Made by a program: the position numbers and the translations under genes
Assembly (NCBI GenBank): GCA_907163075.1
Contig: CAJQTY010000004.1
Location: forward strand, 62,001-126,000
Source of the DNA: an uncultured Rhodocyclaceae bacterium
GTDB taxonomy: Bacteria > Pseudomonadota > Gammaproteobacteria > Burkholderiales > Rhodocyclaceae
DNA: 64,000 nt
Direction: 5' to 3'
In this document: positions 2,244-25,419 of the stretch, in pieces
Numbering within the stretch: position 1 is the stretch's first letter
Layout: the number at the start of each line of letters is the position of its first letter
Notes under the pieces: generated by a model
What the model saw: the letters and a program-made list of their open reading frames with translations, nothing else
Database searches by the model: none
What the model was told of the DNA's origin: nothing

Positions 2244-2262
2244 GATTTTCCTTTCTGGTGTG

Positions 2263-3030: not shown

Positions 3031-4089
3031 CTACGCCCTGGCCGGCTGGCCGGAGAATTTGCTGACGGCTTCCCAGAGTCCGCTCAGATAGACGGCGCCG
3101 AGGGCGCGGTCGTAGAGGCCGTAGCCGGGCTTGCCGGTCTCGCCCCAGATCATGCGCCCATGGTCGGGACGCCAGTAGCCCTCGAAACCGACGTCGTGAT
3201 AGGCCTTGACGATGGCCGCCATGTCCAGCGAGCCGTCGCAGGAACGATGCGTCGATTCGTAGAAGGTGCCATCGGGTTCGACCTTGACGTTGCGCAGGTG
3301 GCCGAAATGGATGCGGCCCTGGCCGCCGAACTCACGCACCAGCGATTCGATGTTGTTGCACAGGTCGGCGCCGAGCGAACCGGCGCACAGGGTCAGGCCG
3401 TTGGCCGGCGAATCGATGAAGCCGATCAGGCGCGCCAGGTCGTCGCGGTTCTTGACGATGCGCGGCAGGCCGAAGATCGGACGCGGAGGATCGTCCGGAT
3501 GCATGGCCATCTTGACGCCGGCTTCGATGGCTACCGGGATGATCGCCTTGAGGAAGTATTCAAGGTTGCCCCACAGCGTCTCTTCGCTGACGTTCTTGTA
3601 TTCGGCGAGCAGGCTCTTGAGCTCCTCGGGCTTGTAGCTGGCGTCCCAGCCCGGCAGGGAGATGCCCTTTTCCGGATCGATGGCGGCGATGGCCTTGGCG
3701 TCGAAAGCCAGGGTAAACGAACCGTCGGGCAGTTCCTTGGCCATTTCGGTGCGCGTCCAGTCGAAGACCGGCATGAAGTTGTAGCAGATGACCTTGATGC
3801 CGACCGCGGCGCAATTCCGGATATTTTGCTGGAAGTTGGCGATCAGGCGGTCGCGCGTCGGTTTGCCGAGCTTGATGTCTTCGTGCACCGGCACGCTTTC
3901 GACGACTTCGAACTTCATTCCGGCGGCTTCGATCTGGTCGCGCAGGGCCTGCAGTTTTTCGAGCGGCCAGACTTCGCCGACGGGGATGTCGTAGACCGCG
4001 GAAACGATGCCGTACATGCCGGGAATCTGGCGGATGTATTTGAGGCTGACGGGGTCGGATTCACCGTACCAGCGGAAGGTCATTTTCAT
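3031..4089 (-). CDS. uxuA: Mannonate dehydratase, copy 1
   Basis: The protein has 352 residues, matching UxuA-family mannonate dehydratases (xylose-isomerase-like TIM barrel), which convert D-mannonate to 2-keto-3-deoxygluconate. Conserved signatures are visible: [25 protein letters not shown] with metal-binding histidine and aspartate, GHLRNVK, and WRPDHGRM near the C-terminus. Start ATG has AAGGAA upstream. It lies 47 bp after uxuB and upstream of eda. Repeat B starts within the last Ala codon (3035), so the stop codon here is TAG whereas copy 2 ends in TGA; the proteins are identical. Function is assigned with high confidence. Confidence 0.95.
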
Positions 4090-5600
4090 GTGCGTGGTTC
4101 CTTGTGTAGTCGTTTCGGGGTTAAAACAGGCTAGAGTCAGAAGCGGATCGCGGCGGCGGTAGCCACCTCGGGGTTCGTCGCCAATTCGACGAACTTGGCG
4201 ATGAGCAAGGCGCGGAAGTCGGCGTTGGCCGGCAGGTCGGCGCCGAAGATCTTGTCCAGCGCCAGCAGGTGGCCGACGATACTCGGGGCGTCGCTGCTCA
4301 GCCGGGCGCGCGCCAGGATCTCGGCGGACTGCGGGTCGTTGAGCACGGCGTCGGGGGTGTGGGCGATCTTTACGGCGTAGTGCATCCAGGCGGCGATGGC
4401 GGTGGCGATCGCCGGTGAAGCCAGACCTTTGGCGAGGCGGTCGCGCAGCGGGGCGAGCAGGCGCTGCGGGAGCTTCTGCGAGCCGTCGGAGGCGATCTGC
4501 GCGGTGCGGTGCTTGAGCGCGGGATTGCGGAAGCGCTGTTTTAAGCTTTCCACGTATTCGGCGGGATTGACGCCCTTGGGGGCATGCAGGACTTCACGGA
4601 TCTCGACCCAAAGCGGGTCGAGGATGTCGGTGATCAGGGGCAGTTGCATGGCGTCGGCGACGGTTTCGCGTCCGGTCAGCTGTCCGAGGTAGGCGAGCGT
4701 GGAGTGCGCGCCATTGAGGCAGCGCAGTTTCATGTTTTCCCAACACTCGATTTCGTCGGAGAAGACGGCGCCGGCGATCGTCCAGTCGGGGCGGCCGAGG
4801 GTGAACTGGTCTTCGATGACCCATTGCACGAACTGTTCGGTGACGACCGGCCAGGCGTCATCGAGGCCGATGACCTGGTTGACGTGGGCGCGGTCGGCGT
4901 CGGTGGTGGCCGGGGTGATGCGGTCGACCATGGTGCACGGGAAGCAGACGCTGGCTTCGATCCAGGCGGCAAGGTCGGCGTCGACCTGGCGGGCGAAGGC
5001 GAGGACGGCGGCCTTGGCGAGTTTGCCGTTGTTCGGCAGGTTGTCGCAGCTGAGGACGGTGAAGGGGGGAATGCCAGCCGCCTTGCGCTTCTTCAGGGCC
5101 TGCACGATGAAGCCGAGGATGGTTTTGGGGGTGGCCAGGGCGGCGAGATCGGCGGCGATGGCCGGGGCCTGCAGCTGCAGCTGGCCGCTGGCCGGGTCGA
5201 GGTAGTAGCCTTTTTCGGTGACGGTGATGCTGACGATGCGCGTGCTGAGGTCGCTCATTTTGGCGAGCAGTTTGTCAGCGTCTTCGGCGCCGCCGAGGAC
5301 GTCGATGATCGAGCCGATGATGCGCACTTTCTCGGAATCGGCGCCCATTTCGGCGAGGGCGTAGAGGCCGTCCTGCGGCACCAGGGCATTCTTCATTTTA
5401 GCCGAGTTGACGCTGGCGCCGATGATGCCCCAGGCCAGGTCGCCGGAGGCCAAAACCGCATCGGTGAACATCGCCTGATGGGCCCGGTGGAAGGCGCCAA
5501 TGCCCAGATGCACGATCGATCCGACAACCTTGCTGCGGTCGTATCCGGGTTTCGCAACGCCTCCCGACAACTGCGTCAGACTCTTTTCGCTTAGCCGCAT
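3035..5600. repeat. Direct repeat B, copy 1 (uxuA-uxuB module, 2566 bp)
   Basis: The segment recurs at 22854-25419 with offset 19819, in the same orientation. Reading frames in several registers of both strands translate identically across it, so the DNA is identical or nearly so. It runs from the last sense codon of uxuA to the start codon of uxuB. Sequence outside differs completely, including the stop codon of uxuA and the leader of uxuB. No flanking insertion sequence is visible. Confidence 0.95.
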
Positions 5601-5603: not shown

Positions 5604-5637
5604 GTGGTTTCTCCTAAAATCTAGTTGTGATTCTTCA

Positions 5638-7056
5638 TTATTCGACCCCCGGAATAGCGAAGTAATTTTTCGCGTTGCGGAAGCTGATGTCCTGCACCAT
5701 GCCACCGAAAGTCTCGAAGTCGGCGGGGATCTCGCCGGCTTCGATCCAGCCGCCGACGAGCGCGCACAGGATGCGGCGGAAATACTCGTGGCGCGGGAAG
5801 GAGAGGAAGCTCCTTGAATCGGTGAGCATGCCGACGAAACGCGAGAGCAGTCCGAGGTTGCCCAGGCTGACCATCTGCCGGCGCATGCCTTCGATGTGGT
5901 CGTTGAACCACCAGGCCGAGCCGCACTGGATCTTGCCGGGAATCGATCCGTCCTGGAAGCAGCCCATGACCGTGCCGAGCACTTCGAGGTCGCCGGGATT
6001 GAGCGAATAGAGAATGGTCTTGGGCAGCAGGCCGTCGCTCTGCAGGGCGTCCATGAAGGCGCCGAGCTTGCGCGCGATCTTCTCGTCGCTCACCGCGTCG
6101 TAGCCGGTATCGGGGCCAAGGCGCTTGAACATCGGTGTGTTGAGATTGCGGATGGCGGCCAGATGCAGTTGCATGACCCAGCCGCGCCTGGCGTTCATGC
6201 GCCCGACGTCGAGCAGGACGGCGGTCTTGAAGGCGTCGCTCTCGTCCGGCGTAGGCGGCGTTCCGTTGAGCAGTTTGGTGAACAGGGTTTCCAGTGCCGG
6301 CCCGTTGGTAAAGGTGGCGAAGGGCGCGATCAGGCCGTGGTCGGAGGCGCGGCAGCCGAGGTCGTGGAACGCGCTGTGGCGCGTGTCGAGCGCGGTGACC
6401 AGGTCGCGATAGCTGCCGATGGAGACGTTGGCGGCGCTGCCGAGCTTGACCAGATAGGTTTTCCAGGCGAGCAGGTCGTCAATTGCCAGCGCCTTGTCGG
6501 GCCGGTAGCTGGGCGTCATCACCGGGTCGCCGGGCTGGCGCGCGGTGGTGTAGGCGATGTGGTGCTCGAGGGTGTCGGCCGGGTCGTCGGTGGTGCCGAC
6601 GGCGCGGACGTTCATTCTCTTGAGCAGAGTGCGGGCGCCGAATTCGGGGGTGACGATCTGGGCGTTGCAGGCTTCCCAGATTTTCGGCGCGGTTTTTTCG
6701 GAGAGCGGCTCATAGATCCCGAAGTAGCGCTGCAGTTCGAGGTGAGTCCAGTGGTAGAGCGGGTTGCCGATCAGGCGCGGAACCGTTCTGGCCCACGCGA
6801 GGAAGCTGTTGTAATCGGGTTCGTGGCCGGTGATGTCGTCTTCGGGCACGCCGTTCGAGCGCATGGCGCGCCACTTGTAGTGGTCGCCGCCGAGCCAGGC
6901 GTGGGCGATGTTCTTGAAGCGTGAGTCGTTGGCGATGTCGGCAGGCGGCAGGTGGCAGTGATAGTCGAGGATCGGCATCGCTGCCGCGTAGTCGTGGTAG
7001 AGCCGCCGCGAGCTCTCGTCGGGGAGGAGGAAATCGGCGTTCATGAAGGCTTGCAT
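5638..7056 (-). CDS. uxaC: Uronate (glucuronate/galacturonate) isomerase
   Basis: The product is 472 residues, the usual UxaC length, and is an amidohydrolase-fold isomerase converting D-glucuronate to D-fructuronate. Near the N-terminus the metal-binding DYHCHLPP motif and ADIANDSRFKN are visible, followed by AWLGGDHYKWRAMR and the C-terminal LTDSRSFLSFPRHEYFRR, all characteristic. Start ATG 7054-7056 lies behind CGGAGTAAACAT; the frame runs on upstream through dctM in a meaningless register, which I reject. It sits 20 bp downstream of dctM. It is the only gene of the core hexuronate pathway present once, so cluster 2 lacks this entry step. Confidence 0.96.
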   Translation of the reverse strand: MQAFMNADFLLPDESSRRLYHDYAAAMPILDYHCHLPPADIANDSRFKNIAHAWLGGDHYKWRAMRSNGVPEDDITGHEPDYNSFLAWARTVPRLIGNPLYHWTHLELQRYFGIYEPLSEKTAPKIWEACNAQIVTPEFGARTLLKRMNVRAVGTTDDPADTLEHHIAYTTARQPGDPVMTPSYRPDKALAIDDLLAWKTYLVKLGSAANVSIGSYRDLVTALDTRHSAFHDLGCRASDHGLIAPFATFTNGPALETLFTKLLNGTPPTPDESDAFKTAVLLDVGRMNARRGWVMQLHLAAIRNLNTPMFKRLGPDTGYDAVSDEKIARKLGAFMDALQSDGLLPKTILYSLNPGDLEVLGTVMGCFQDGSIPGKIQCGSAWWFNDHIEGMRRQMVSLGNLGLLSRFVGMLTDSRSFLSFPRHEYFRRILCALVGGWIEAGEIPADFETFGGMVQDISFRNAKNYFAIPGVE

Positions 7057-7076
7057 ATGTTTACTCCGTGCATTAA

Positions 7077-8435
7077 TCAGAACACCGGTGCGCCCTTGAG
7101 CAGCGTCGGAATCCAGGTTGAGAACGACGGCACATAGGTAACGACGGCCATCACGGCAAAGAGCGCGCCGTAGAACGGCGTGATGCTCTTCATCACCTGT
7201 TCGACCGAGACCTCGCCGATGGCGCACCCCACGAACTGTGTCGTCCCCACCGGCGGCGTGTTCAGCCCGAGCGCGCAGTTGAGCAGTATGACCATGCCGA
7301 ACTGCACCGGACCCATGCCCATCTGGATCGCCAGCGGCAGGAACAGCGGCGTGCAGATCAGGATGGTCGAAGCCATGTCCATGAAGGTGCCGAGGATGAA
7401 CAGGATCAGGTTGATCAGGAAAAACATCACGTACGGGTTGGTCGTCGCGGAAAGCAGCAGTTCGGCTGTCTTGTCCGGGATTTCCAGGATCGCCATGATG
7501 TACTGGAACATCGTCGATACGCCGATCAGCAGCAGTACCACGCCGGTCGTCTTGGCGGCCTTGGCCGCCGCCTTCATCAGCTTGCTCCAGGTCATCGTGC
7601 GGTAGCCGAGGAAGGTGAGCAGCAGCGTGTAGGTCACGGCGATGCCGGCGGCTTCGGTGGCGGTGGTGATGCCGGCGATGATGCAGCCGAGGATGATGAC
7701 GATCACCAGCATGCCCGGGGCGGCGGCGATGCACGAGGTGAGCACCGCGTTCCAGCCAGCGAACTTGTCCAGTGTGCGCGACCCGTCGGCGCGCACCGGG
7801 TAGCCTTCGCGCTTGGCCACCCAGTAGGCGGCGAACAGCATGCAGGCCATCAGCACGAGCACCGGCAACAGGCCGGCGAACATCAGGTCGCCGATCGACA
7901 CGCCCTTGACCATGACGTTGTGGCCCAGCAACATGCCGCTGCTGCTGGAGGCGGCGAAGGCGTAGATGATCAGGTTGTGCGAGGTCGGCATCAGGGCGCC
8001 GGCCAGCGAGGCATGCGTGGTGACGTTCACCGCGTAGTCGGCGCTGTAGCCTTCTCTCTTCATCATCGGGATCATGACGCCGCCCATCGCCGAAACGTCG
8101 GCCACCGGCGAGCCGGAGACGCCGCCGAACAGCGTGCACGCCACCACGTTGGCCATGCCCAGGCCGCCACGCCAGTGGCCGACCAGGTTGCGGGCGAAAT
8201 TGACGATCTTGTCGGCGACGCCGCCATGCAGCATCAGTTCGCCGGAGAAGATGAAGAAGGGGATGGCCAGGAAGGAAAAGACGTTCATCCCGGAGATCAT
8301 GTTCTGGAAGGCGAGCTCGAGCGGGAAGCCTTCCACCCAGTAGGTGGCCAGGCAGCTGAGGGCGATCGAAAAGGCGACCGGTACCCCGAGCAGCAGGAAG
8401 AGCGTGAAGCTGATACAGAGGACGGTCAGTGCCAT
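7077..8435 (-). CDS. dctM: TRAP transporter large membrane subunit (DctM), cluster 1
   Basis: This 452-residue, highly hydrophobic protein with about 12 predicted membrane segments belongs to the DctM family, the Na+-coupled ion channel-like subunit of a tripartite TRAP transporter in the inner membrane. Typical stretches include AIPFFIFSGELM, GGVSGSPVADVSAMG and ALGLNTPPVGT. The ATG at 8433-8435 overlaps the end of dctQ by 10 bp, the usual translational coupling. It lies 20 bp upstream of uxaC, so import and isomerisation are likely co-transcribed. By context the substrate is a hexuronate such as glucuronate or galacturonate; the sequence alone does not show the substrate. Confidence 0.93.
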   Translation of the reverse strand: MALTVLCISFTLFLLLGVPVAFSIALSCLATYWVEGFPLELAFQNMISGMNVFSFLAIPFFIFSGELMLHGGVADKIVNFARNLVGHWRGGLGMANVVACTLFGGVSGSPVADVSAMGGVMIPMMKREGYSADYAVNVTTHASLAGALMPTSHNLIIYAFAASSSSGMLLGHNVMVKGVSIGDLMFAGLLPVLVLMACMLFAAYWVAKREGYPVRADGSRTLDKFAGWNAVLTSCIAAAPGMLVIVIILGCIIAGITTATEAAGIAVTYTLLLTFLGYRTMTWSKLMKAAAKAAKTTGVVLLLIGVSTMFQYIMAILEIPDKTAELLLSATTNPYVMFFLINLILFILGTFMDMASTILICTPLFLPLAIQMGMGPVQFGMVILLNCALGLNTPPVGTTQFVGCAIGEVSVEQVMKSITPFYGALFAVMAVVTYVPSFSTWIPTLLKGAPVF

Positions 8436-8920
8436 GATGGGATCACTTCCTTGTCGGTAAACATTGCAATCAGGTGTTCGATCGAGAACAGGACGATCAG
8501 TGCGCCGGCGGCCACTGCGGGGATATAGCGGTAGGCTTCGGAGATGCCCAGCGTGGGGATGCTGTTGGGCCACACGGAAATCGCCATGGTCGTGCAGCCC
8601 CAGACGAGGGCGGCGCCGAAACAGATGGTGATCAGGCCGACCAGGTTGCCGATCCAGAACTGGTAGGACTTGGGCAGCAGGCCGGTCAGGGATTCCATGC
8701 CGATGTGGCCTTCGTCGCGCACGCCGGCGGCGGCGCCGAACATGGCGACGTTGATGACCAGGATCAGGGCCACCTGTTCCGACCACGACGGGGCGTCATT
8801 GAGGATGTAGCGCCAGATCACCGAGCCGACGACGACGCCGACGATCCCCAGCAGGCAGGCGACGGCGATGTACATCGCCCAACGGGACAGTCGGGCGTTA
8901 AGGCAGGTTAGCCAATTCAT
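8426..8920 (-). CDS. dctQ: TRAP transporter small membrane subunit (DctQ), cluster 1
   Basis: This 164-residue protein with four predicted membrane helices matches the DctQ family, which pairs with DctM in the inner membrane. The conserved RYILNDAPSWSEQVA and the stretch containing DEGHIGME (helix II-III loop) are visible. Start ATG 8918-8920 has GGAG seven bases upstream. It overlaps dctM by 10 bp and follows dctP after an 83-bp gap holding a stem-loop. The order P-Q-M is that of the classical Rhodobacter dctPQM system. Confidence 0.9.
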   Translation of the reverse strand: MNWLTCLNARLSRWAMYIAVACLLGIVGVVVGSVIWRYILNDAPSWSEQVALILVINVAMFGAAAGVRDEGHIGMESLTGLLPKSYQFWIGNLVGLITICFGAALVWGCTTMAISVWPNSIPTLGISEAYRYIPAVAAGALIVLFSIEHLIAMFTDKEVIPSWH

Positions 8921-8931
8921 TGCTTTACTCC

Positions 8932-8970
8932 AAAAAACAACCCGAAGATGCGCAGAGCACAGCTTCGGGC
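8932..8970 (-). terminator. Stem-loop with T-tract between dctP and dctQ (attenuator candidate)
   Basis: On the minus strand GCCCGAAG pairs with CTTCGGGT, with further inner pairing, followed by TTGTTTTTT. This looks like an intrinsic terminator placed inside the operon, between the abundant periplasmic receptor gene and the membrane subunit genes. Partial termination would give more DctP than DctQM, as is common in binding-protein operons. Activity is inferred. Confidence 0.6.
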
Positions 8971-9003
8971 TTGATTGCTATCGTTTGAACACCTGAAACC
9001 TGA

Positions 9004-9984
9004 TTACTTGGTGTTGACGATTTTCTGGACCAGCCCCTTGAGTTCCGGGGTCGGGGAGAATTTGTCCCACACCGGCTTCATGACGCTAACGAATTCGGCC
9101 TTGTTGACGTCGGAAACGAAGGTGGCGCCGTTATCCATGGCGATCTTCTTGGAGGCCTGTTCCTTCTTGGTCCATAGATCGATGTAGTAGGGAACGGTTT
9201 CTTTGGCGGCATCCCGGATGATCTTCTGTTCTTCCTTGCTCAGCGTGTCCCAGACCTTCTTGGAGAAGACGACGACTTCCGGCGACATGACGTGCTGCGT
9301 TTCGCTGTAGATCGGGGCGGCTTCGTAGTGCTTGGCCGTTTCATACGATGGGTAGTTGTTTTCGGCGGCGTCGACCAGGCCGGTCTTCAGCGCGGTGTAA
9401 ACTTCGGCCATCGGGATCGGCGTCGGGTTGGCACCCATCGCCTGCGCCAGGCTGACCCACAGGTCGGACTGCTGGACGCGGATCTTCATGCCTTTGACGT
9501 CGGCCAGGTTGCGTACCGGCTTCTTGGCGTAGATGGAGCGGGCGCCGGATTCCCACAGGACCAGGCCAACGAATCCGGCCTTTTCGAAGGCGGCGAGGAT
9601 GTCGTCACCGGCCGGGCCGGCCATGGCGTTGCGGAAGTGTTTGATGTCGCGGAAGATGAACGGGAAGGACGGGACCATGGTTTCCGGGATGATGCCGTGG
9701 AAGGCGGCGGTGCTCACGCGCACCATGTCCAGCGCGCCAATCTTGACTTGTTCGACGGTATCCTTTTCCGAACCCAGCGAGCTGTTGCCGAAGACCTTGA
9801 CGTTGTATTTGCCGTTGGTCTTCTGGCTGACGATTTCGCCGATCTTTTTCACCGTCATTACGGTCGGGTAGTCGGCCGGGTGCACGTCCGCCGAACGGAA
9901 ATCACGCGCCTGCACCGGCGCCGCGCTTAAGGCAAACGCCGACGCCAGAACGACACCCATAACCTTTTTCAGTTGTTGCTTCAT
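9004..9984 (-). CDS. dctP: TRAP transporter periplasmic solute-binding protein (DctP), cluster 1
   Basis: This 326-residue DctP-family receptor starts at ATG 9982-9984 behind GAGGAGGAAAAG. Residues 1-26 form a classical signal peptide (basic MKQQLKK, hydrophobic core, APVQA cleavage site), so the mature protein is periplasmic. The family fold is recognisable: KVFGNSSLG, the substrate-carboxylate arginine in KGMKIRVQQS, and the helix region VDAAENNYPSYE. It is the first gene of cluster 1 and is divergent from lysR across 357 bp. By context the ligand is a hexuronate; DctP ligands are sugar acids or carboxylates, and the conserved arginine salt bridge is present. Confidence 0.93.
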   Translation of the reverse strand: MKQQLKKVMGVVLASAFALSAAPVQARDFRSADVHPADYPTVMTVKKIGEIVSQKTNGKYNVKVFGNSSLGSEKDTVEQVKIGALDMVRVSTAAFHGIIPETMVPSFPFIFRDIKHFRNAMAGPAGDDILAAFEKAGFVGLVLWESGARSIYAKKPVRNLADVKGMKIRVQQSDLWVSLAQAMGANPTPIPMAEVYTALKTGLVDAAENNYPSYETAKHYEAAPIYSETQHVMSPEVVVFSKKVWDTLSKEEQKIIRDAAKETVPYYIDLWTKKEQASKKIAMDNGATFVSDVNKAEFVSVMKPVWDKFSPTPELKGLVQKIVNTK

Positions 9985-10341
9985 CTTTTCCTCCTCGATA
10001 ATTAATATTAGAACTTTTTTGGCAAACCACATGGCAAATCACACCACAACCATGGCGTGATTATCTTGAGTAAGTGCATTCCCATCCAATGCTATTTAGG
10101 AAGAACCCCATTCGTTAATGGTATGTACTCAAACCGTATCCCGGATTTGTTGCCCCCCGGTCGATTTTCAACCGGCGTCATGAGGCCGCAAGCTCACACA
10201 TGATGCGATTGGAACAAAATCCCGAACGCATCATCGCTACTTCCAAGACAAGCGCGTCAGGTATGCCGCTCAATTCCTCATCGGGCCAGAGCAATAGTGC
10301 TGGTATATTTGTGCCAAGGCACTATAGGGGAGGAGACCAGC
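9985..10341. promoter_or_regulatory. Divergent intergenic region dctP (-) / lysR (+)
   Basis: This 357-bp region without a gene separates the cluster 1 operon from the divergent lysR, so it must hold both promoters and is the natural place for LysR binding. It is AT-richer than its surroundings. I see a small inverted repeat GTGCC-AA-GGCAC at 10311-10322 just ahead of the lysR ribosome site, and TATATT near 10304 as a possible -10. No convincing T-N11-A LysR box could be singled out by eye. Confidence 0.45.
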
Positions 10342-11271
10342 ATGGATGTCCGGCGGTTGAAATACTTCATCGTGACCGCAGAAGAGCGGAGCATCAGTCG
10401 GGCAGCGGAAAGACTCCACATCACGCAACCGCCCTTAACTCGCCATATCCAGTCTCTGGAAGAAGAGCTGGGGGTGCAGCTCTTCACCCGCACCAACTGG
10501 GGGGTTGAACTCACTCAGGCCGGCAAGGCTTTGCTGAGTCATGCGCGCAATATCAAGGCGCACGTCGAACTGGCGACAGAGGAGATCCGACGAGTGGCAA
10601 GCGGCCAGGCAGGGCGATTCGACATCGGGGTTTTTGGCTCGGCCATGCTCAACGTCATTCCCAGAATACTGAGTTCATATACACTGGCCTGCCCGGATGT
10701 CCACGTGGTCCTGCACAATGCACCCAAAGGGCGGCAAATAGAGGCCTTGCAACAAGGGCGGATCCTCATTGCTTTTGACCGCTATTTTCCGGATTCTCCC
10801 GAATTGTGCACCGAACTGGTCAGCAGGGAGCCTCTGTGGGTCGCTCTTAACCAGCGTAGCCGGCTGATAAATCAATCCAGCATCAATGTCGCCGATTTGA
10901 AAAACGAGCCGCTGATTGGCGAACAAGATCAGAGTGTTTTCTTTATAAGCCAGGCCGTTTTCAGACATCACAACGTTGAACCACTGATCGTTCATAAGGC
11001 AGCAGACATGATTGCGGCGGTAGTCATGGTTGCCGGAGGATTCGGCAGTGCACTGGTGCCGGAATCGGTGGTCAACCTGCAGTTGCCCGGTGTTGTCTTT
11101 CGCCCGCTGGTCGCTGACGTCGAGTCATTGATCGATCTGCACTGCGTGTACCGAAAGGACGAACAATCCCCGTTGCTGGCATCCATGCTGGAGTGCGTCC
11201 GTGTCTATCGCAACCAGAATCAGTCTGATTTGCGGCTTGCCAGCAGCGTCCCGGAGACAAACATCTCCTGA
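10342..11271 (+). CDS. LysR-family transcriptional regulator
   Basis: This 309-residue LysR-type regulator has an N-terminal winged helix-turn-helix (about residues 1-60: DVRRLKYFIVTAEE, SISRAAERLHITQPPLTRHI, LEEELGVQLF) and a C-terminal periplasmic-binding-protein-like effector domain from about residue 90. Start ATG 10342 follows GGGGAGGAGACCAGC, an excellent site; the frame is open 15 codons upstream but without one. It is transcribed away from the TRAP-uxaC-uxuBA-eda-kdgK operon, so it is probably the activator of that operon responding to a sugar acid. It ends ahead of the second hairpin, convergent with kdgK copy 2. The effector is unknown. Confidence 0.9.
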   Translation: MDVRRLKYFIVTAEERSISRAAERLHITQPPLTRHIQSLEEELGVQLFTRTNWGVELTQAGKALLSHARNIKAHVELATEEIRRVASGQAGRFDIGVFGSAMLNVIPRILSSYTLACPDVHVVLHNAPKGRQIEALQQGRILIAFDRYFPDSPELCTELVSREPLWVALNQRSRLINQSSINVADLKNEPLIGEQDQSVFFISQAVFRHHNVEPLIVHKAADMIAAVVMVAGGFGSALVPESVVNLQLPGVVFRPLVADVESLIDLHCVYRKDEQSPLLASMLECVRVYRNQNQSDLRLASSVPETNIS

Positions 11272-11328
11272 TTGCAGGGAGACCATAAATCTTTCAGGTT
11301 GGAGCAAGCCAAAGGAACACCTCCAAAA

Positions 11329-11373
11329 ACGATGCCCTGATAGCCGCCATTCATGCGGCTTTCAGGGCATCGT
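11329..11373. terminator. Bidirectional hairpin between convergent lysR and kdgK (copy 2)
   Basis: Same hairpin as at 1069-1113 and again between two convergent genes. The repeat starts at its outermost A; the base before it (A11328) no longer pairs with C11374, whereas G1068-C1114 could pair in copy 1. It probably stops both lysR and kdgK transcripts. Confidence 0.7.
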
Positions 11374-11402
11374 CCATTGCGGGGCGCCGATTGGCGCCGG
11401 GT

Positions 11403-12503: not shown

Positions 12504-12522
12504 GATTTTCCTTTCTGGTGTG

Positions 12523-13209: not shown

Positions 13210-13297
13210 GGGATACTCTCCTTGGGTTGCTGGTGGTTTGGCCGCGCGAGCGGCACATTCGGAAAACAAGCGGGTATTGAGGGCATTGATTTTCGGG

Positions 13298-13737: not shown

Positions 13738-13802
13738 TTCAGATGAGCACAACCGGGATCAGATTTTCTGACAGGCGTATTCTCGCAAGAAATTGATAAT
13801 TT

Positions 13803-15027: not shown

Positions 15028-15150
15028 TTCGTTTCTCCTGTTTTGGATAGGACTGCAACAACCTCTATGACTGCCATCAAGTAACGCCAAACCAACTCCG
15101 GAAAGAAGAACGATGTCTCATGTCTCCGCTTCCCGTTTTCTACCTGTCGA

Positions 15151-16431: not shown

Positions 16432-16468
16432 GTGATTCTCCTAAACTTGTTTCAGTGCGTGCGTGGAG

Positions 16469-16969: not shown

Positions 16970-17083
16970 GCCACCCCTCCATTAAAAAAATGTTTTATGC
17001 GTTTGGCGACGGCGTCTACCTTCTGCCAGCCAAACCGATCCGGCACTCCTCGTCCTTCTTGTCGATGGCCCCGAGCCCGGCCG

Positions 17084-18085: not shown

Positions 18086-18106
18086 GATTGAGCTGTCCTG
18101 GTCGGG

Positions 18107-19069
18107 TTAGAACGCGTTGACTTGATAGAGCGGCGGCTCGCCGCGCAGCACTCGCCGGACTTCCTCGGCCGCCTTGCGCTTGAGCTCTTTGGCAGATTCT
18201 TCCGAATGCCACGCCATGTGCGGCGTACACAGAAAATTGTCGTATTTGAAAAGGGGGTTGGTCGGCGCGCCGGGTTCATTGCTGAAAACGTCGAGCGCAG
18301 CGCCGGCCAGCCTTTTCTCCCCGAGCATCCGGTCCAGCGCGGCTTCGTCGACGATGGAACCGCGCGCGGTGTTGATCAGGTAAGCCGAAGGCTTCATCAG
18401 GCCGAGCATTTTTTCGTCGAGCATGTTGCGCGTCGATTCCGACAGCGGGCAATGCACGGATACCACGTCGGAGTGCCGCAGCACCTCTTCGAGACTGACC
18501 AGGCTGATGTAATCCGGAACCTGCTCGCGCTTGACGAAGGGGTCGTGGGCGATGACCTTCATGCCCAGCGCATGCGTCTTGTGGGCCATGGCGCTGCCAA
18601 TGCGGCCGACACCGATGATGCCGATCGTCTGTTCCTGGTGGCGATGCACCGGATACATCAACCGGAAATCCCATTTCCCCTGCTTGACCAGGGAACTGGC
18701 GTAAGCAATCTTGCGCGTCAGGCACAGCATCATCGCCAGCGCGTGATCGGAGACTTCATGGGTGCCATAATCAGGCACGTTACTGACGATGATCCCGAGA
18801 TCCGCCGCGGCCCGGAGATCGACGGTATCGACCCCCACCCCGTAGCGGGCAATGATCCGGCAGCGCGGCAACTGCTGCATCGCACGCCGGGTCATCGGCG
18901 CGTACATGATGATGATTCCTTCAGCGTCGGCGCACTGCGCGATGATTTCATCTTCGCTCCGGCACGCCAGCCACGGCAACTCGGAACACATGTCGGCAAG
19001 GACAGCACGCTCGATTTCTATCGATTGATGATCACAATCGGCAACGATCACTACATGTCTGCTACTCAA
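18107..19069 (-). CDS. D-isomer-specific 2-hydroxyacid dehydrogenase
   Basis: This 320-residue NAD-dependent dehydrogenase of the D-2-hydroxyacid family has the nucleotide-binding GIIGVGRIGSAMA, the substrate arginine in NTARGSIVDE, the glutamate in ALDVFSNEP and the catalytic histidine in CTPHMAWHSEES. All three catalytic residues are present. The most likely start is TTG 19067-19069, with GGAG six bases upstream, giving MSSRHVVIVAD; an in-frame TTG four codons earlier has no ribosome site. It heads a sub-operon that continues into the zinc dehydrogenase and TRAP-2, and its upstream region carries two IclR-like palindromes. The reaction is probably interconversion of a 2-keto and a 2-hydroxy sugar acid; the substrate is unknown. 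Confidence 0.85.
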   Translation of the reverse strand: MSSRHVVIVADCDHQSIEIERAVLADMCSELPWLACRSEDEIIAQCADAEGIIIMYAPMTRRAMQQLPRCRIIARYGVGVDTVDLRAAADLGIIVSNVPDYGTHEVSDHALAMMLCLTRKIAYASSLVKQGKWDFRLMYPVHRHQEQTIGIIGVGRIGSAMAHKTHALGMKVIAHDPFVKREQVPDYISLVSLEEVLRHSDVVSVHCPLSESTRNMLDEKMLGLMKPSAYLINTARGSIVDEAALDRMLGEKRLAGAALDVFSNEPGAPTNPLFKYDNFLCTPHMAWHSEESAKELKRKAAEEVRRVLRGEPPLYQVNAF

Positions 19070-19085
19070 GGCAGTCTCCAATTAA

Positions 19086-19100
19086 TGGAACAACGTTCCA
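19086..19100. promoter_or_regulatory. Palindromic operator 1 (TGGAAC-N3-GTTCCA)
   Basis: TGGAACAACGTTCCA is a perfect 6-3-6 inverted repeat, extended to 17 bp by A19085 and T19101. It lies 16 bp upstream of the hydroxyacid dehydrogenase start. The spacing and sequence fit IclR-family operators, and the only IclR-type gene in the window is the broken one at 13298-13737. Confidence 0.7.
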
Positions 19101-19125
19101 TAATATTACGATCAAGCACTATTTA

Positions 19126-19140
19126 TGGCACGTTGTTCCA
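19126..19140. promoter_or_regulatory. Palindromic operator 2 (one mismatch)
   Basis: TGGCACGTTGTTCCA matches the reverse complement of operator 1 at 14 of 15 positions. The centres are 40 bp apart, close to four helical turns, which would place the two sites on the same DNA face. Both lie in the 114-bp gap between idnD and the hydroxyacid dehydrogenase gene. Confidence 0.6.
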
Positions 19141-19183
19141 ATTTTTTTCGATTCGCAGACACTCGGCTTTCCGTCGCCGCCGC

Positions 19184-20227
19184 TCAGCCGAAGCTGAGCT
19201 GTACTTTCATCTGCGACGTACGATCGCGGGCAATTGTGAAAGCTTCGGCGATACGTTCCATCGGCATGGTGGCCGAAATCAGCGGGCGCACGTCGACCAG
19301 CCGTTCGCGAATCAGGCGCGCTGCCACGGCATATTCGTGGTGGAAACGGTGCGAGCCAACCAGCCTGACTTCCTTGCCAACCAGGGCATTGACCGGAATG
19401 TCGGCACCGCCCGAGACGCCCACCTGGACGATCGTGCCGCGCGGACGGATAACCGGGAATGCCTGCCTGAGCACGGCGCCCACCCCGGTGCATTCGAATA
19501 CGACATCGAAATAACCCTTGTCGGCTGAATAGTCCGCCATCAGGCGATCCGGCTCCTGGCTGGCGTTGATCACCGTGGTCGCCCCCATCGCCTTAGCGGC
19601 CTTGAGGGGCGCCTCGGAGAGATCGACGGCCACGATTTCCAGCGCTCCGGCATGACTCACCGCGCCGATCAGCAAGGCGCCGATCGGCCCGGCGCCGGTG
19701 ACCAAAACACGCTTGCCCATCAGGCTTCCGGCCTGATTGACGGCGTGCACCCCGACCGCCAGAGGCTCGGTGCACGCGGCTTCGCCGAGCGATACGGTGT
19801 CGCCCACCGGCTCGCACTGGAATTCCTCGGCGACCAGCACGTCGCGAAAGCCACCGTGGGTATGCGGCTTGCGCATGGCGCTGCCGAAGAACTGCATCTC
19901 CAGGCAGTGCTGCTGCTCGCCGGACAAACAGAATTTGCACTTTCCGCACGGACGGCTTGGATTCAACGCCACGCGGTCGCCCGGCTTGACCCGGGTGACG
20001 TCCTTGCCGACCGCTTCAACCGTACCGGCCACTTCATGCCCCATGACGATCGGTTCGGTGACGCGAATGGTGCCGATGCCGCCTTCCCAGTAATAGTGGA
20101 TATCCGAACCGCAAAGACCGCCGGCACCAATGCGCACCAGGACCTGCCGCGGCCCGACCTCATCCACCGCGACGCTTTCGATGCGCACATCTTCCTGCGC
20201 GTGCAATACACATGCCCGAGTTTCCAT
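19184..20227 (-). CDS. idnD: L-idonate 5-dehydrogenase-like zinc dehydrogenase
   Basis: This 347-residue medium-chain zinc dehydrogenase closely follows the E. coli IdnD pattern: GGLCGSDIHYYWEGGIG, VMGHEVAG, NPSRPCGKCKFC, and the very characteristic QFFGSAMRKPHTHGGF (MRFFGSAMYFPHVDGGF in IdnD from memory). The Rossmann motif is GAGPIGALLIG. IdnD oxidises L-idonate to 5-keto-D-gluconate. Start ATG 20225-20227 lies behind a weak AAGGAAAAAGTC; it follows the yiaK-like gene by 28 bp. It could also act on L-gulonate or a similar hexonate. The family is certain and the exact substrate likely but not proven. Confidence 0.82.
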   Translation of the reverse strand: METRACVLHAQEDVRIESVAVDEVGPRQVLVRIGAGGLCGSDIHYYWEGGIGTIRVTEPIVMGHEVAGTVEAVGKDVTRVKPGDRVALNPSRPCGKCKFCLSGEQQHCLEMQFFGSAMRKPHTHGGFRDVLVAEEFQCEPVGDTVSLGEAACTEPLAVGVHAVNQAGSLMGKRVLVTGAGPIGALLIGAVSHAGALEIVAVDLSEAPLKAAKAMGATTVINASQEPDRLMADYSADKGYFDVVFECTGVGAVLRQAFPVIRPRGTIVQVGVSGGADIPVNALVGKEVRLVGSHRFHHEYAVAARLIRERLVDVRPLISATMPMERIAEAFTIARDRTSQMKVQLSFG

Positions 20228-20255
20228 GACTTTTTCCTTTACCAGTAATTTAACT

Positions 20256-21260
20256 TCAGAGTGCCTGGATCTTTGACCAGACGTCGTCCTCGACCGGGAT
20301 GCCGTTCGTCAGATTGGCATTGCGAATCGACAGTTCCTTCTCGCCGGGGTACAGCACCGGCTGCTTCGGGTCCACGCGCTCGGAACCCTGGAGATTTTCA
20401 ATCACCTCGTTGATCGCCGAAGCGAGGTAGTCTTCACCCGCAATGCGCGTGGCATCCATGGCGATAAACATCTGCGACAGGCCATATTCGTCGCTGCCCA
20501 GTTCGCCCACGCGCTTCGTCGAACGTCCGCCGGAAAGCACGGCGGCGATCAGGTCCATGACGATTGACATCGACGAGCCCTTCCAGTAGCCGATGGGCAG
20601 CACGCGCCAGGTCTTGGCGATCTCGTTCGGATCGCAGGAAATATTGCCCTGCTCGTCGTACCCGCCCGGCACCGGCAGCATCTCGCCGCGCATCGCGGTG
20701 GCTTCCATCTGGCCATACGAATACTGCGCCATGGCGATGTCGACCACGACATGACCGCCCTGGCGCGGGATCGACATGATGAACGGGTTGTTGCCGATGC
20801 GCCGGTCACGCGCCCCCCAGGCCGGCATGTTGGGCTGGGTGTTGGTCCAGCAGATGCCGACGCAGCCCGCATCGGCGGCCTGCCAGCCGTAACTGCCGCC
20901 ACGCAGCCAGTGGTTGGTGTTGCCCAGCGCGACGCCGCCAATCCCGAACTCCCTGGCCAATTCGACGGCGCGGTCCATCGACAGCTTGGCGTTCACGTTG
21001 CCCAGACCGAGGTTGCCATCCCAGCGCTCGAACGCGCCCATACCGTCTACCCGGCTCGGTTTGGCCTTGAGGTCGATGTAACCTTTGTCGATATATTCGA
21101 CCACCCGCGGAAAGCGGTTCACGCCGTGCGAATAGACGCCGTCGCAGCTGGTTTCGGTCATCAGTTGTGCCGAGATGTCGGCGGTGGTTTCGTCACAGCC
21201 TTTCTTGATCAGGACGCGTTTGAATTCGGCTTTCAACTCTTCAAACTGGACGCGAGGCAT
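20256..21260 (-). CDS. yiaK: 2,3-diketo-L-gulonate reductase (malate/L-lactate dehydrogenase family, YiaK-like)
   Basis: The product has 334 residues and belongs to the LDH2/MDH2 family. It shares with E. coli YiaK/DlgD the stretches DGVYSHGVNRFPR, NHWLRGGSYGWQAA, GICWTNTQPNMPAWG, LPIGYWKGSSMSIV and a C-terminal VWSKIQAL, so the assignment is strong. YiaK reduces 2,3-diketo-L-gulonate to 3-dehydro-L-gulonate with NADH. Start ATG 21258-21260 has AAGGAG six bases upstream; an ATG five codons earlier has none. It lies 81 bp after the Gfo/Idh gene and 28 bp before idnD. The presence of a yiaL-like gene and a QMP-order TRAP system in the same cluster repeats the E. coli yia operon logic. Confidence 0.85.
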   Translation of the reverse strand: MPRVQFEELKAEFKRVLIKKGCDETTADISAQLMTETSCDGVYSHGVNRFPRVVEYIDKGYIDLKAKPSRVDGMGAFERWDGNLGLGNVNAKLSMDRAVELAREFGIGGVALGNTNHWLRGGSYGWQAADAGCVGICWTNTQPNMPAWGARDRRIGNNPFIMSIPRQGGHVVVDIAMAQYSYGQMEATAMRGEMLPVPGGYDEQGNISCDPNEIAKTWRVLPIGYWKGSSMSIVMDLIAAVLSGGRSTKRVGELGSDEYGLSQMFIAMDATRIAGEDYLASAINEVIENLQGSERVDPKQPVLYPGEKELSIRNANLTNGIPVEDDVWSKIQAL

Positions 21261-21341
21261 GTCTTGCTCCTTCAAATGTGTTGCTGCGTGATTTGCTCGG
21301 GTTCGTTATGCAGTCGATGTCGATGCACCCGGCTTGCCGTC

Positions 21342-22340
21342 TCAGTAGCCATGCTGCTGGCGGTACTTCCTCAATATCTCGTCGGCCACCCAGGTCGAGC
21401 GCACGGCGCTATCGACGTTCCCGGGACACGGCGCAAGGCCGTTGAGCTCATCGACGATGCTGCGGATGAAGGGCTGCTGCACGTGCGGCGGATTGGCGAT
21501 GGCTGCTTCCTGCTCACCGTTCTCGTTGATCAGCCTGAGCGGCCGGTCGGAAAAGAACTCGAATTCGATCCGCCCTTTCGAACCGACGATCTCCACGTAA
21601 TCCTCGCCATGGCCGCAGACGTAGCACCACGAGCCAAAGCCCTGGACGCCGCTGGCATGCCGCCAGGTCGCCGTCACCGTGTCTTCGACGTCGTAAAGCC
21701 CGGCGCGGTTGCTGGCGATGCCGTGCACTTCCTCGATGGCGCCGAACCAGAAATCGAGCATGTCGAGCGTGTGAATGCCCATGTCCAGGAACTTGCCGCC
21801 GCCGGAGACTTCCGGTTTCAGGCGCCAGGGAAGCGTGGCGCGCGACAGGTCCTCGCTCGCCGGCGGTTGGTGCTGGACGGCGCGCACGCAGCGCACCTCG
21901 CCGATGGCGCCGCTATCCAGCCACTCCTTGACCTTCAGGAAGCGCGGCATGGCGCGGCGGTAAAAGGCGACGAACAGGCGAACGCCCTTCTCTGCGCACG
22001 CTTCGACGATCTCGCAGCACTCCTCGAAACGCATGGCCATCGGTTTTTCGACGTAGACGTGCTTGCTGGCATTGGCTACCAGCAAGGCCAGCGGCTTGTG
22101 CGACGAGGGCGGCGTGGCGATATACACCGCGTCGATGTCCGGGTCGGCCAGGAGCTGTTCGGTGGTGTCGTAGGCCTTGGCCACCCCGTGCCGCTGCGTA
22201 AACGAACGGGTCATCGCGGGATCAGCGCTGGTCACGGCGTCAAGCGCCGAGTTGCGCGACTTGTAGAATCCCGGCCCGCTCTTCACTTCGGCCACGGCAC
22301 CGCAGCCGATCATTCCCCAGCGAATCGTCTTCGCGCTCAC
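21342..22340 (-). CDS. Gfo/Idh/MocA-family oxidoreductase (cluster 2)
   Basis: This 332-residue protein has an N-terminal Rossmann domain (WGMIGCGAVAEVKSGPGF) and the family signature VYVEKPMAMRFEE, followed by an alpha/beta C-terminal domain (GGGKFLDMGIHTLDML with the usual catalytic histidine). The start is GTG 22338-22340, overlapping the yiaL-like stop as GTGA, so the two are translationally coupled. These enzymes oxidise or reduce sugars, sugar acids or inositols with NAD(P). The substrate is not evident, but the location implies a sugar acid. Confidence 0.85.
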   Translation of the reverse strand: MSAKTIRWGMIGCGAVAEVKSGPGFYKSRNSALDAVTSADPAMTRSFTQRHGVAKAYDTTEQLLADPDIDAVYIATPPSSHKPLALLVANASKHVYVEKPMAMRFEECCEIVEACAEKGVRLFVAFYRRAMPRFLKVKEWLDSGAIGEVRCVRAVQHQPPASEDLSRATLPWRLKPEVSGGGKFLDMGIHTLDMLDFWFGAIEEVHGIASNRAGLYDVEDTVTATWRHASGVQGFGSWCYVCGHGEDYVEIVGSKGRIEFEFFSDRPLRLINENGEQEAAIANPPHVQQPFIRSIVDELNGLAPCPGNVDSAVRSTWVADEILRKYRQQHGY

Positions 22341-22819
22341 GATGCGGCCTGCAGCAAGGAGACGCGCACCTTGATCACGACCTTGCGAATCGTTGCCGGC
22401 TGGCCGACGGCACATCCGGGACGATGCACGTCGTTCGGAAAAAATGCCGCAAAGCTGCCGGGAGTCATGGTCAGTGTCGACTCGTTTTCCATGCCCGCGT
22501 AAAAGAGCACGTCGCGCTGTTCCAGGCAATCCTCGGCAATCGCGTTATTACCGGTATCGGCGGCAACGCCCATCTTCTCGTTGCCGTGACACGAGTACTG
22601 CACGTCGATGTACTGGCGATGCACCTCGGCGCGGGTTTCGGCGAAGGGCTTGGTGGTCGTGTCGAAGACCTGAACGTAAATGTCCTTGCCCTGCAGATCG
22701 TAGTTGCCGACCGGCAACGCGGAGAAATCGGTCTGCTTGAGGTGTTCCAGGGCAATTTTGAGCGGCCTGGGAAGCCAGGCAAAGCCCGACTCCAGATCGC
22801 TTACATGTCCGAAAATCAT
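22337..22819 (-). CDS. YhcH/YjgK/YiaL-family protein
   Basis: This 160-residue cupin-like protein is of the YhcH/YjgK/YiaL (DUF386) family. HRQYIDVQYSCHGNEKMG and FFPNDVHRPGCAVG, with metal-binding histidines, are the conserved core. Members are suspected sugar (acid) mutarotases or isomerases and accompany sialic acid, L-lyxose and diketogulonate operons. Start ATG 22817-22819 lies behind AGAGGAAACGCGAAA. It is 30 bp downstream of uxuA copy 2 and overlaps the Gfo/Idh gene by 4 bp. Function in the pathway is inferred from the family. Confidence 0.88.
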   Translation of the reverse strand: MIFGHVSDLESGFAWLPRPLKIALEHLKQTDFSALPVGNYDLQGKDIYVQVFDTTTKPFAETRAEVHRQYIDVQYSCHGNEKMGVAADTGNNAIAEDCLEQRDVLFYAGMENESTLTMTPGSFAAFFPNDVHRPGCAVGQPATIRKVVIKVRVSLLQAAS

Positions 22820-22849
22820 TTTCGCGTTTCCTCTGAAATCAGTCCTTGC

Positions 22850-23908
22850 TCAAGCCCTGGCCGGCTGGCCGGAGAATTTGCTGACGGCTTCCCAGAGTCC
22901 GCTCAGATAGACGGCGCCGAGGGCGCGGTCGTAGAGGCCGTAGCCGGGCTTGCCGGTCTCGCCCCAGATCATGCGCCCATGGTCGGGACGCCAGTAGCCC
23001 TCGAAACCGACGTCGTGATAGGCCTTGACGATGGCCGCCATGTCCAGCGAGCCGTCGCAGGAACGATGCGTCGATTCGTAGAAGGTGCCATCGGGTTCGA
23101 CCTTGACGTTGCGCAGGTGGCCGAAATGGATGCGGCCCTGGCCGCCGAACTCACGCACCAGCGATTCGATGTTGTTGCACAGGTCGGCGCCGAGCGAACC
23201 GGCGCACAGGGTCAGGCCGTTGGCCGGCGAATCGATGAAGCCGATCAGGCGCGCCAGGTCGTCGCGGTTCTTGACGATGCGCGGCAGGCCGAAGATCGGA
23301 CGCGGAGGATCGTCCGGATGCATGGCCATCTTGACGCCGGCTTCGATGGCTACCGGGATGATCGCCTTGAGGAAGTATTCAAGGTTGCCCCACAGCGTCT
23401 CTTCGCTGACGTTCTTGTATTCGGCGAGCAGGCTCTTGAGCTCCTCGGGCTTGTAGCTGGCGTCCCAGCCCGGCAGGGAGATGCCCTTTTCCGGATCGAT
23501 GGCGGCGATGGCCTTGGCGTCGAAAGCCAGGGTAAACGAACCGTCGGGCAGTTCCTTGGCCATTTCGGTGCGCGTCCAGTCGAAGACCGGCATGAAGTTG
23601 TAGCAGATGACCTTGATGCCGACCGCGGCGCAATTCCGGATATTTTGCTGGAAGTTGGCGATCAGGCGGTCGCGCGTCGGTTTGCCGAGCTTGATGTCTT
23701 CGTGCACCGGCACGCTTTCGACGACTTCGAACTTCATTCCGGCGGCTTCGATCTGGTCGCGCAGGGCCTGCAGTTTTTCGAGCGGCCAGACTTCGCCGAC
23801 GGGGATGTCGTAGACCGCGGAAACGATGCCGTACATGCCGGGAATCTGGCGGATGTATTTGAGGCTGACGGGGTCGGATTCACCGTACCAGCGGAAGGTC
23901 ATTTTCAT
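22850..23908 (-). CDS. uxuA: Mannonate dehydratase, copy 2
   Basis: The 352-residue protein is identical to copy 1 (3031-4089), including the MHPDDPPRP and WRPDHGRM motifs. The only coding difference is in the last codons: Ala is GCT here instead of GCG, and the stop is TGA instead of TAG, because repeat B begins at 22854. In this cluster it is followed by the yiaL-like gene rather than eda. It converts D-mannonate to KDG. Confidence 0.95.
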
Positions 23909-25419
23909 GTGCGTGGTTCCTTGTGTAGTCGTTTCGGGGTTAAAACAGGCTAGAGTCAGAAGCGGATCGCGGCGGCGGTAGCCACCTCGGGGTTCGTCGC
24001 CAATTCGACGAACTTGGCGATGAGCAAGGCGCGGAAGTCGGCGTTGGCCGGCAGGTCGGCGCCGAAGATCTTGTCCAGCGCCAGCAGGTGGCCGACGATA
24101 CTCGGGGCGTCGCTGCTCAGCCGGGCGCGCGCCAGGATCTCGGCGGACTGCGGGTCGTTGAGCACGGCGTCGGGGGTGTGGGCGATCTTTACGGCGTAGT
24201 GCATCCAGGCGGCGATGGCGGTGGCGATCGCCGGTGAAGCCAGACCTTTGGCGAGGCGGTCGCGCAGCGGGGCGAGCAGGCGCTGCGGGAGCTTCTGCGA
24301 GCCGTCGGAGGCGATCTGCGCGGTGCGGTGCTTGAGCGCGGGATTGCGGAAGCGCTGTTTTAAGCTTTCCACGTATTCGGCGGGATTGACGCCCTTGGGG
24401 GCATGCAGGACTTCACGGATCTCGACCCAAAGCGGGTCGAGGATGTCGGTGATCAGGGGCAGTTGCATGGCGTCGGCGACGGTTTCGCGTCCGGTCAGCT
24501 GTCCGAGGTAGGCGAGCGTGGAGTGCGCGCCATTGAGGCAGCGCAGTTTCATGTTTTCCCAACACTCGATTTCGTCGGAGAAGACGGCGCCGGCGATCGT
24601 CCAGTCGGGGCGGCCGAGGGTGAACTGGTCTTCGATGACCCATTGCACGAACTGTTCGGTGACGACCGGCCAGGCGTCATCGAGGCCGATGACCTGGTTG
24701 ACGTGGGCGCGGTCGGCGTCGGTGGTGGCCGGGGTGATGCGGTCGACCATGGTGCACGGGAAGCAGACGCTGGCTTCGATCCAGGCGGCAAGGTCGGCGT
24801 CGACCTGGCGGGCGAAGGCGAGGACGGCGGCCTTGGCGAGTTTGCCGTTGTTCGGCAGGTTGTCGCAGCTGAGGACGGTGAAGGGGGGAATGCCAGCCGC
24901 CTTGCGCTTCTTCAGGGCCTGCACGATGAAGCCGAGGATGGTTTTGGGGGTGGCCAGGGCGGCGAGATCGGCGGCGATGGCCGGGGCCTGCAGCTGCAGC
25001 TGGCCGCTGGCCGGGTCGAGGTAGTAGCCTTTTTCGGTGACGGTGATGCTGACGATGCGCGTGCTGAGGTCGCTCATTTTGGCGAGCAGTTTGTCAGCGT
25101 CTTCGGCGCCGCCGAGGACGTCGATGATCGAGCCGATGATGCGCACTTTCTCGGAATCGGCGCCCATTTCGGCGAGGGCGTAGAGGCCGTCCTGCGGCAC
25201 CAGGGCATTCTTCATTTTAGCCGAGTTGACGCTGGCGCCGATGATGCCCCAGGCCAGGTCGCCGGAGGCCAAAACCGCATCGGTGAACATCGCCTGATGG
25301 GCCCGGTGGAAGGCGCCAATGCCCAGATGCACGATCGATCCGACAACCTTGCTGCGGTCGTATCCGGGTTTCGCAACGCCTCCCGACAACTGCGTCAGAC
25401 TCTTTTCGCTTAGCCGCAT
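22854..25419. repeat. Direct repeat B, copy 2 (uxuA-uxuB module, 2566 bp)
   Basis: Same orientation and apparently the same sequence as 3035-5600. The right end is exactly the A of the uxuB ATG as read on the minus strand; beyond it the two leaders are unrelated. Recombination between the two copies would remove 19.8 kb. Confidence 0.95.
23956..25419 (-). CDS. uxuB: Fructuronate reductase (polyol/mannitol dehydrogenase family), copy 2
   Basis: The 487-residue product is identical to copy 1 from the second methionine on ([14 protein letters not shown]). Start ATG 25417-25419 follows AAAGGGGA at about ten bases; an in-frame TTG nine codons upstream is less likely. It is the first gene of cluster 2, preceded by uxaC in copy 1 but here by its own divergent promoter region shared with gntR. 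Its fructuronate supply must come from another enzyme, possibly one of the zinc dehydrogenases of this cluster, or from UxaC of cluster 1. Confidence 0.9.

Follow-up and report, generated by a model that had tools for sequence, protein, structure and literature searches.

Identical gene blocks in catabolic operons of an uncultured Rhodocyclaceae bacterium and their probable concerted evolution

Two operons and their shared gene blocks

The window analysed here is a stretch of 64,000 nucleotides from an uncultured Rhodocyclaceae bacterium (assembly GCA_907163075.1, contig CAJQTY010000004.1, positions 62,001 to 126,000), and it carries two putative sugar acid operons in which the gene pairs uxuB-uxuA and eda-kdgK both occur twice. 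Operon A has the order lysR / dctPQM-uxaC-uxuB-uxuA-eda-kdgK and operon B the order gntR / uxuB-uxuA-yiaL-...-dctQMP-eda-kdgK. The families recognised with Pfam and NCBIfam are UxaC, UxuB (mannitol dehydrogenase type), UxuA, PfkB kinase, 2-keto-3-deoxy-6-phosphogluconate (KDPG) aldolase and subunits of tripartite ATP-independent periplasmic (TRAP) transporters. Judging from these genes, operon A probably serves the uptake of D-glucuronate and its breakdown through KDPG. Operon B appears to be of the L-gulonate/L-idonate type, in which YiaK-, YiaL- and IdnD-type enzymes and further dehydrogenases would enter the shared route at fructuronate. The repeated blocks, followed by the remaining features, are listed below.

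3035..5600, minus strand: repeat B, copy 1, in operon A; uxuB (ATG at 5600, stop 4137-4139) and uxuA (4089-3031), Pfam UxuA and Mannitol_dh; 100% identical to copy 2
22854..25419, minus strand: repeat B, copy 2, uxuB-uxuA in operon B, adjoining gntR; 100% identical to copy 1
1069..2958, minus strand: repeat A, copy 1, eda-kdgK in operon A; 100% identical to copy 2 over 1890 bp
11329..13218, minus strand: repeat A, copy 2, eda-kdgK, terminal in operon B and adjoining lysR; found by self-BLAST of the window
5642..7069, minus strand: uxaC block of operon A (ATG at 7056); second copy on contig C1, 2377399-2378825, in a kduI-kduD-uxaC cluster
7077..10004, minus strand: dctP-dctQ-dctM block (TRAP transporter) of operon A; second copy on contig C2, 415285-418212
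2959..3034, minus strand: uxuA-eda spacer of operon A, 76 bp with a hairpin; unique, both repeats stop there
10342..11271, plus strand: lysR regulator (Pfam LysR), divergent from operon A
14035..22819, minus strand: rest of operon B, namely yiaL, a Gfo/Idh/MocA oxidoreductase, yiaK-type, idnD-type, a 2-hydroxyacid dehydrogenase, a Zn-dehydrogenase (adh1), dctQ, dctM and dctP
25536..26246, plus strand: gntR-type regulator (GntR-FCD), upstream of operon B

BLAST comparison of the window with itself confirmed the claim of the initial annotation that uxuA-uxuB forms an identical repeat of 2566 bp cut at the gene edges: positions 3035-5600 match 22854-25419 at 2566 of 2566 bases, without mismatches or gaps (repeat B). 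The limits proposed there, from the last sense codon of uxuA to the ATG of uxuB, were right to one base. The 5' edge is the A of the uxuB ATG, exactly so in both copies, and the 3' edge lies at base 2 of the last uxuA sense codon (GC/G TAG versus GC/T TGA, the slash marking the edge). The stop codons of the two uxuA copies, TAG and TGA, differ as had been described. Repeat A (1069-2958 and 11329-13218, 1890 bp) is likewise 100% identical in the window self-BLAST, with 0 mismatches; it starts 9 nt before the eda ATG and ends with a terminator-like hairpin (-36.6 kcal/mol) 74 nt past the kdgK stop. Chance repetition is ruled out by the length of the exact match. The uxuBA repeat is real.

The identity does not continue into the flanks, four pairs of which were compared by local alignment score against 50 shuffles. 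The 400 bp upstream of uxuB showed no similarity between the copies (score 16 versus shuffled 12.8, standard deviation (s.d.) 2.0), in keeping with the unrelated leaders reported initially. The same was found for the 76-bp spacer against the 400 bp downstream of the other uxuA (9 versus 9.9, s.d. 1.5) and for the downstream flanks of repeat A (14 versus 13.3, s.d. 2.2). The upstream flanks of repeat A scored about 3 s.d. above the shuffles (15 versus 10.1, s.d. 1.6), and they possibly share a short similarity beside the eda ribosome site.

A single large and recent segmental duplication, with its flanks replaced since, would account for the occurrence of both repeats in two operons of one 25-kb region. 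We consider it scarcely credible, as the flanks show little or no similarity although the genes show zero divergence, and the partners of uxaC and dctPQM lie on other contigs. A large duplication with eroded flanks is ruled out for the window by 100% identical genes beside unrelated flanks, although the upstream flanks of repeat A score about 3 s.d. above the shuffles.

Operon A as a set of duplicated modules

The window's own genome (G000) comprises 5.2 Mb on four contigs, with 98.04% completeness and 3.63% contamination, and the window lies on its contig C4. When the whole genome was searched with window positions 1069-20000, operon A (1069-10004) was seen to lie, for 8812 of its 8936 bp, inside blocks having a near-identical second copy. 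There are four such modules, their partners lie at three other loci (operon B, contig C1 and contig C2), and their edges are at or near gene edges; only the spacers are unique within the operon. Besides the two repeats reported initially, dctPQM and uxaC are therefore also duplicated near-identically, on C2 and C1, respectively.

The uxaC block is 99.4% identical to its C1 copy (7 mismatches, 1 gap). From the ATG to base 2 of the last sense codon the copies differ at only 4 positions, all in the last ~300 bp. At its partner locus, uxaC is preceded by genes of the KduI and short-chain dehydrogenase families, the latter being presumably kduD. Over its 2928 bp the dctPQM block differs from its C2 copy at 3 positions; all three lie upstream of the ribosome-binding site, and from that site to the stop there is no mismatch. 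The C2 copy sits between an aminotransferase/methyltransferase pair and a sensor kinase, and no related gene was noticed beside it. No second near-identical copy of lysR was among the listed matches in G000, and the part of operon B from 14035 to 20000, where the searched span ends, had no second copy above ~71% identity.

A third eda-kdgK, present as a decayed remnant with internal deletions, was observed on C1 (1642799-1643137), where it adjoins another TRAP operon; its pieces are 87-98% identical to the intact copies. As a background, 700 kb of C2 were compared with themselves, with 84 kb of C4 and with 40 kb of C1 (at least 93% identity over at least 400 bp). Outside the operon A modules this yielded a Phage_integrase gene, a LamB_YcsF gene and two genes of insertion-sequence type that carry rve integrase domains, one of the two having a partial third copy. 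The LamB_YcsF gene is pxpA-like and duplicated on C2 (100007-101190 and 116107-117292, 94.8%). Near-identical duplication is therefore concentrated in these catabolic modules within the part of G000 searched.

Such exact repeats raise the question of an assembly or polishing artefact, whether by the levelling of copies that truly differ or by wrong joins between repeat paths. Short reads can be laid through exact repeats of 2.6 and 1.9 kb in more than one way, and the assembly has four contigs and 3.63% contamination. Nevertheless, the uxaC copies retain 4 mismatches in their block, the same pattern occurs in other assemblies, and the gene order at the copies matches that of relatives (see below), so that an artefact appears very improbable.

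It might also be proposed that operon A was built recently in the G000 lineage by separate copy-and-paste events involving whole genes, that is, by a cassette-like assembly. Such an origin would suit the four modules, whose partners are spread over three other loci and whose ends fall at gene edges or close to them. However, no sequence is common to all 16 module flanks: a comparison of 60 nt of each flank, short and made with 9-mers only, revealed no common recombination site or repeat at the module ends. The sharing of 9-mers (8 of 119 flank pairs) exceeded the shuffled mean of 1.8 (s.d. 1.4). Two of these eight pairs are physically overlapping flanks and two are repeats of the same match, which leaves four short matches, each linking two modules only.

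Movement of the modules as cassettes or mobile elements was rejected for lack of a common end sequence. Neither a transposase nor an integrase was present among the open reading frames scanned with Pfam/NCBIfam in window positions 1-29 kb, a scan covering part of the frames. A PLSDB query with uxuBA gave 381 records, none covering 80% of it; the top record covers 60% at 71%. Eight records have a best place of at least 90% identity, none of them among the best 20 of the 381. A near plasmid source for uxuBA was therefore not seen among the PLSDB matches listed. At the start of the window, an open frame cut by the window boundary (1-1023, plus strand) matches only the C-terminal half of a Firmicute-type FBPase_2 (PF06874).

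Gene settings and gene trees in related genomes

Further genomes of the genus, labelled G003, G005 and so on, served for comparison. G017, G023 and G027 also have the order gntR / uxuB-uxuA-yiaL of operon B; G005 and G026 have it too, with an insert that separates yiaL from uxuA. The kduI-kduD-uxaC cluster is present in G003, G006, G018 and G021, and in G015 it is cut by a contig end. The uxaC-uxuB order typical of operon A recurs in G015 and in Rhodoferax sp. U2-2l, where the junction region aligns. Thus, uxaC stands in the same two settings in both G000 and G015. In the latter, contig C281 carries kduI-kduD-uxaC and breaks inside uxaC, while contigs C186 and C110 have 91 bases in common through the uxaC stop and are then unrelated, C110 running into uxuB; most of uxaC between the visible ends was not found on the G015 contigs. 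Since both settings are common to G000 and G015, they are old, and so are the uxaC duplicates. Between these genomes uxaC is 89% identical over 418 bp (~11% apart), whereas the copies within G000 differ at 4 sites of the block. On C110, at about 1038-1047, uxuB falls into two overlapping pieces in different frames, which reflects a frameshift or an assembly error.

Contig C50 of G012 has the lysR-kdgK-eda order in common with G000, as part of an overall dctP-lysR-kdgK-eda order. This genome contains two uxuA ends, which are 98.5% alike over 270 bp and 84-85% identical to G000; one is followed by yiaL and the other by terminator-like sequence. The second uxuA of G012 is probably located in operon A, and G012 thereby indicates, if only indirectly, that the uxuBA duplication is older than the species split.

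These shared settings weigh against a recent cassette-like assembly of operon A: uxaC-uxuB in G015 and Rhodoferax, dctP-lysR-kdgK-eda in G012, and kduI-kduD-uxaC in G003, G006, G018, G021 and G015. The absence of second copies of uxuA and uxaC from G026 speaks for it. On balance, we regard such an assembly as unlikely. The suggestion of the initial annotation that two modules had been copied with near-codon precision into a second operon found no support, because the arrangement is old and its settings are common to other species.

The contig ends of relatives fall inside adh1 (G006, G012, G017, G023, G027), uxaC (G015), uxuA/uxuB (G012, G003), kdgK (G023) and dctQ/dctM (G005), and breaks inside these genes fit with their being multi-copy genes. 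G012 has a second adh1 copy, of which 438 bp are visible; it begins 3 nt ahead of the ATG and is 98.4% identical. Contigs C4 and C13 of G006 share 14,748 identical bp, either a real duplication or a duplicated contig.

In gene trees, the copies of uxuA and uxuB group by genome and not by locus. Those of operons A and B in G000 are identical, and the uxuA copies of G012 (99/94) and the uxuB copies of G003 (100/100) group together. uxuB is 100% identical within G000, versus 73-86% at the amino acid level to four congeners, and within-genome paralogues are more alike than between-species orthologues for uxuB, uxuA and dctM of G026. The homogenisation extends to silent sites, with 0 differences in 2566 bp within G000. 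Third codon positions of the duplicated genes are 47-81% identical between G000 and congeners (47-70% for uxuA and uxuB), and therefore the identity within G000 does not stem from protein constraint. The tree signal on the direction of overwriting and on the origin of operon A is mixed: uxuB of G000 groups with the operon-A-type genes of G015 and Rhodoferax (94/94, 84/71), the frameshifted G015 uxuB has a second half that falls elsewhere in the tree (80/84), and for uxuA, G000 is placed with G018/G012 (96/94). Operon A may have reached the group by transfer and been homogenised later, or it may have been lost from G026 and others.

An independent case was found on the full contigs of G026, a genome of four contigs. 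Three of its operons contain the B-type dctQM. The copies differ by 2, 13 and 13 mismatches over a block of 1805 bp (99.3-99.9%), which starts one base ahead of the dctQ ATG and ends two bases past the dctM stop. The three dctM copies are 99.5-100% identical. Two of the operons have dctP in common too (2877 bp in total, 99.5%), whereas in the third a dctP only 72% identical to the others adjoins the near-identical dctQM. In the dctP tree, this third copy groups with those of G005 (95%) and G006 (79%), with support of 100/100. The neighbouring DNA on contig C2 of G026 matches contig C10 of G005 over 8.4 kb at 91.5%, and two further, rearranged segments match contig C11 of G006 at 75-77%. At the adh1 locus of G026 there are matches to contig C20 of G006 on both sides of dctQMP, and to contig C21 of G005 over 6 kb. 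Because both the dctP tree and the neighbouring DNA pair the G026 loci with G005 and G006, these loci predate the species splits, and yet their dctQM is almost identical within G026. A second dctQM family of this genome shows the same pattern (99.7%, with dctP at 74%). The two dctQM copies of G006 are a counter-case to this within-genome likeness: they are 76% alike, an unconverted counterpart, as expected where conversion is absent.

The contrast between dctQM and dctP in G026 is the clearest evidence of conversion stopping at gene edges. There the sequence changes sharply from 99.3% in dctQM to a diverged homologous flank, dctP at 72%. The window flanks, unlike this one, are not clearly homologous. 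According to the initial annotation, homology running past the block edges in a relative would count against its proposals. Such homology does exist in G026 (dctP at 72% beyond the 99% block); it speaks against precise copying and leaves conversion unaffected. In a background comparison of 500 kb of contig C3 with four other stretches of G026, one repeat cluster inside a large protein was found besides the dct modules. TRAP transporters are very many in the congeners, with 34 dctM matches in G005 and 31 in G026 at E <= 1e-40.

Probable concerted evolution of old duplicates

Based on these comparisons, the best explanation, and in our opinion a highly probable one, is the concerted evolution of old duplicates by gene conversion, with tract ends set by the loss of homology at gene edges. 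The initial annotation had offered conversion limited by diverged flanks as one of two possibilities; it is borne out by the duplicates of other species, which, in matching settings, resemble each other more closely inside one genome than across genomes. Operons A and B, the kduI-kduD-uxaC locus and the lone dctPQM locus would hold old duplicates of common parts. Gene conversion, i.e. homologous recombination without crossover, would repeatedly overwrite one copy by the other, so that the copies evolve in concert. As the intergenic DNA is unrelated between the loci, homology ends at the gene edges; the heteroduplex would stop there, and the observed limits of the blocks do lie at a start codon, ribosome site, stop codon or terminator, or close to one. 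The parts that define the input, namely regulators, upstream dehydrogenases and, in G026, the TRAP binding protein dctP, stay distinct.

This explanation is drawn from what is seen in the genomes: the identity of the blocks, their edges, the unrelated flanks, the duplicates in matching settings in relatives, and the conflict of the trees. A mechanism by recombination, a direction in which one copy overwrites the other and an advantage under selection would be inferences from this pattern.

Several points weigh against concerted evolution. No recombination was directly observed, and the module edges are neater than a single random conversion tract would leave, so that repeated or full-length events are needed. 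The duplication of operons A and B is not universal in the genus. Two uxuA matches occur in only 2 of 28 genomes of the genus. In G026, uxuA, uxaC and a close kdgK are each present once, and although collapse in short-read assemblies may conceal further uxuA copies elsewhere, this genome is on four contigs and shows a single one. The two uxuB pieces of G003 are only 91% alike; they are thus not homogenised there, and they could also derive from mixed strains. Furthermore, the G015 comparison comprises 91 visible bases, and the middle of operon A is missing in G012.

The reiterated nif genes of Rhizobium etli are reportedly subject to gene conversion, with identical genes in operons of differing content. 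Those copies are said to lie on one symbiotic plasmid, while the present ones belong to catabolic operons and TRAP permeases.

The kind of phenomenon is already known from the amoCAB, haoAB and cycAB genes of Nitrosomonadales, for which concerted evolution has been described (Wang and Chen 2018, PMC6053082). The two cases agree in that pathway genes of Betaproteobacteria exist as near-identical copies, flanking synteny places the duplication before the species, and recurrent gene conversion is invoked. They differ in that the pathway operons of Nitrosomonadales are multi-copy, whereas here the four modules that form a single operon are homogenised with partners at three other loci, and identity breaks off at gene edges within operons of otherwise different content. 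In methanogens, long-lasting gene conversion has been reported for the mtrA duplication (PMC4632066); there too, two copies of one gene are reportedly kept similar over long times, but both are carried by the mtr operon itself. The L-gulonate catabolic pathway of Haemophilus influenzae, with its TRAP transporter, dehydrogenase, UxuB, UxuA, kinase and aldolase, is a biochemical parallel of operon B, with no duplicated lower pathway described in the part of that source seen (PMC5788505). Literature searches on gene conversion or concerted evolution of bacterial paralogous operons, on TRAP transporters, on uxuA/uxuB and on Propionivibrio gene duplication gave no report of the present case among the matches listed. 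Two features are apparently new as far as the literature searched shows: the make-up of operon A from modules homogenised with copies at three other loci, and the different fates of permease and binding protein.

For comparative work there is a warning here: short-read assemblies can break or lose genes of this type, and these genes can mislead gene trees. At the same time, they offer natural cases within one genus in which gene conversion appears to leave identical genes in otherwise unrelated operons, with tract ends visible to the base. Whether homology alone limits conversion, or selection for common parts favours it, can be tested on the contrast between the homogenised dctQM and dctP at 72%. 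In a broader sense, and with an even chance in our estimation, several catabolic operons of the genus may share a stock of interchangeable parts (enzymes of the lower pathway and permease subunits of TRAP transporters), which recombination would keep identical across loci while the specificity parts (binding proteins, regulators and entry dehydrogenases) diverge. Whole genes would then move between operons by conversion, and the operons would be updated part by part.

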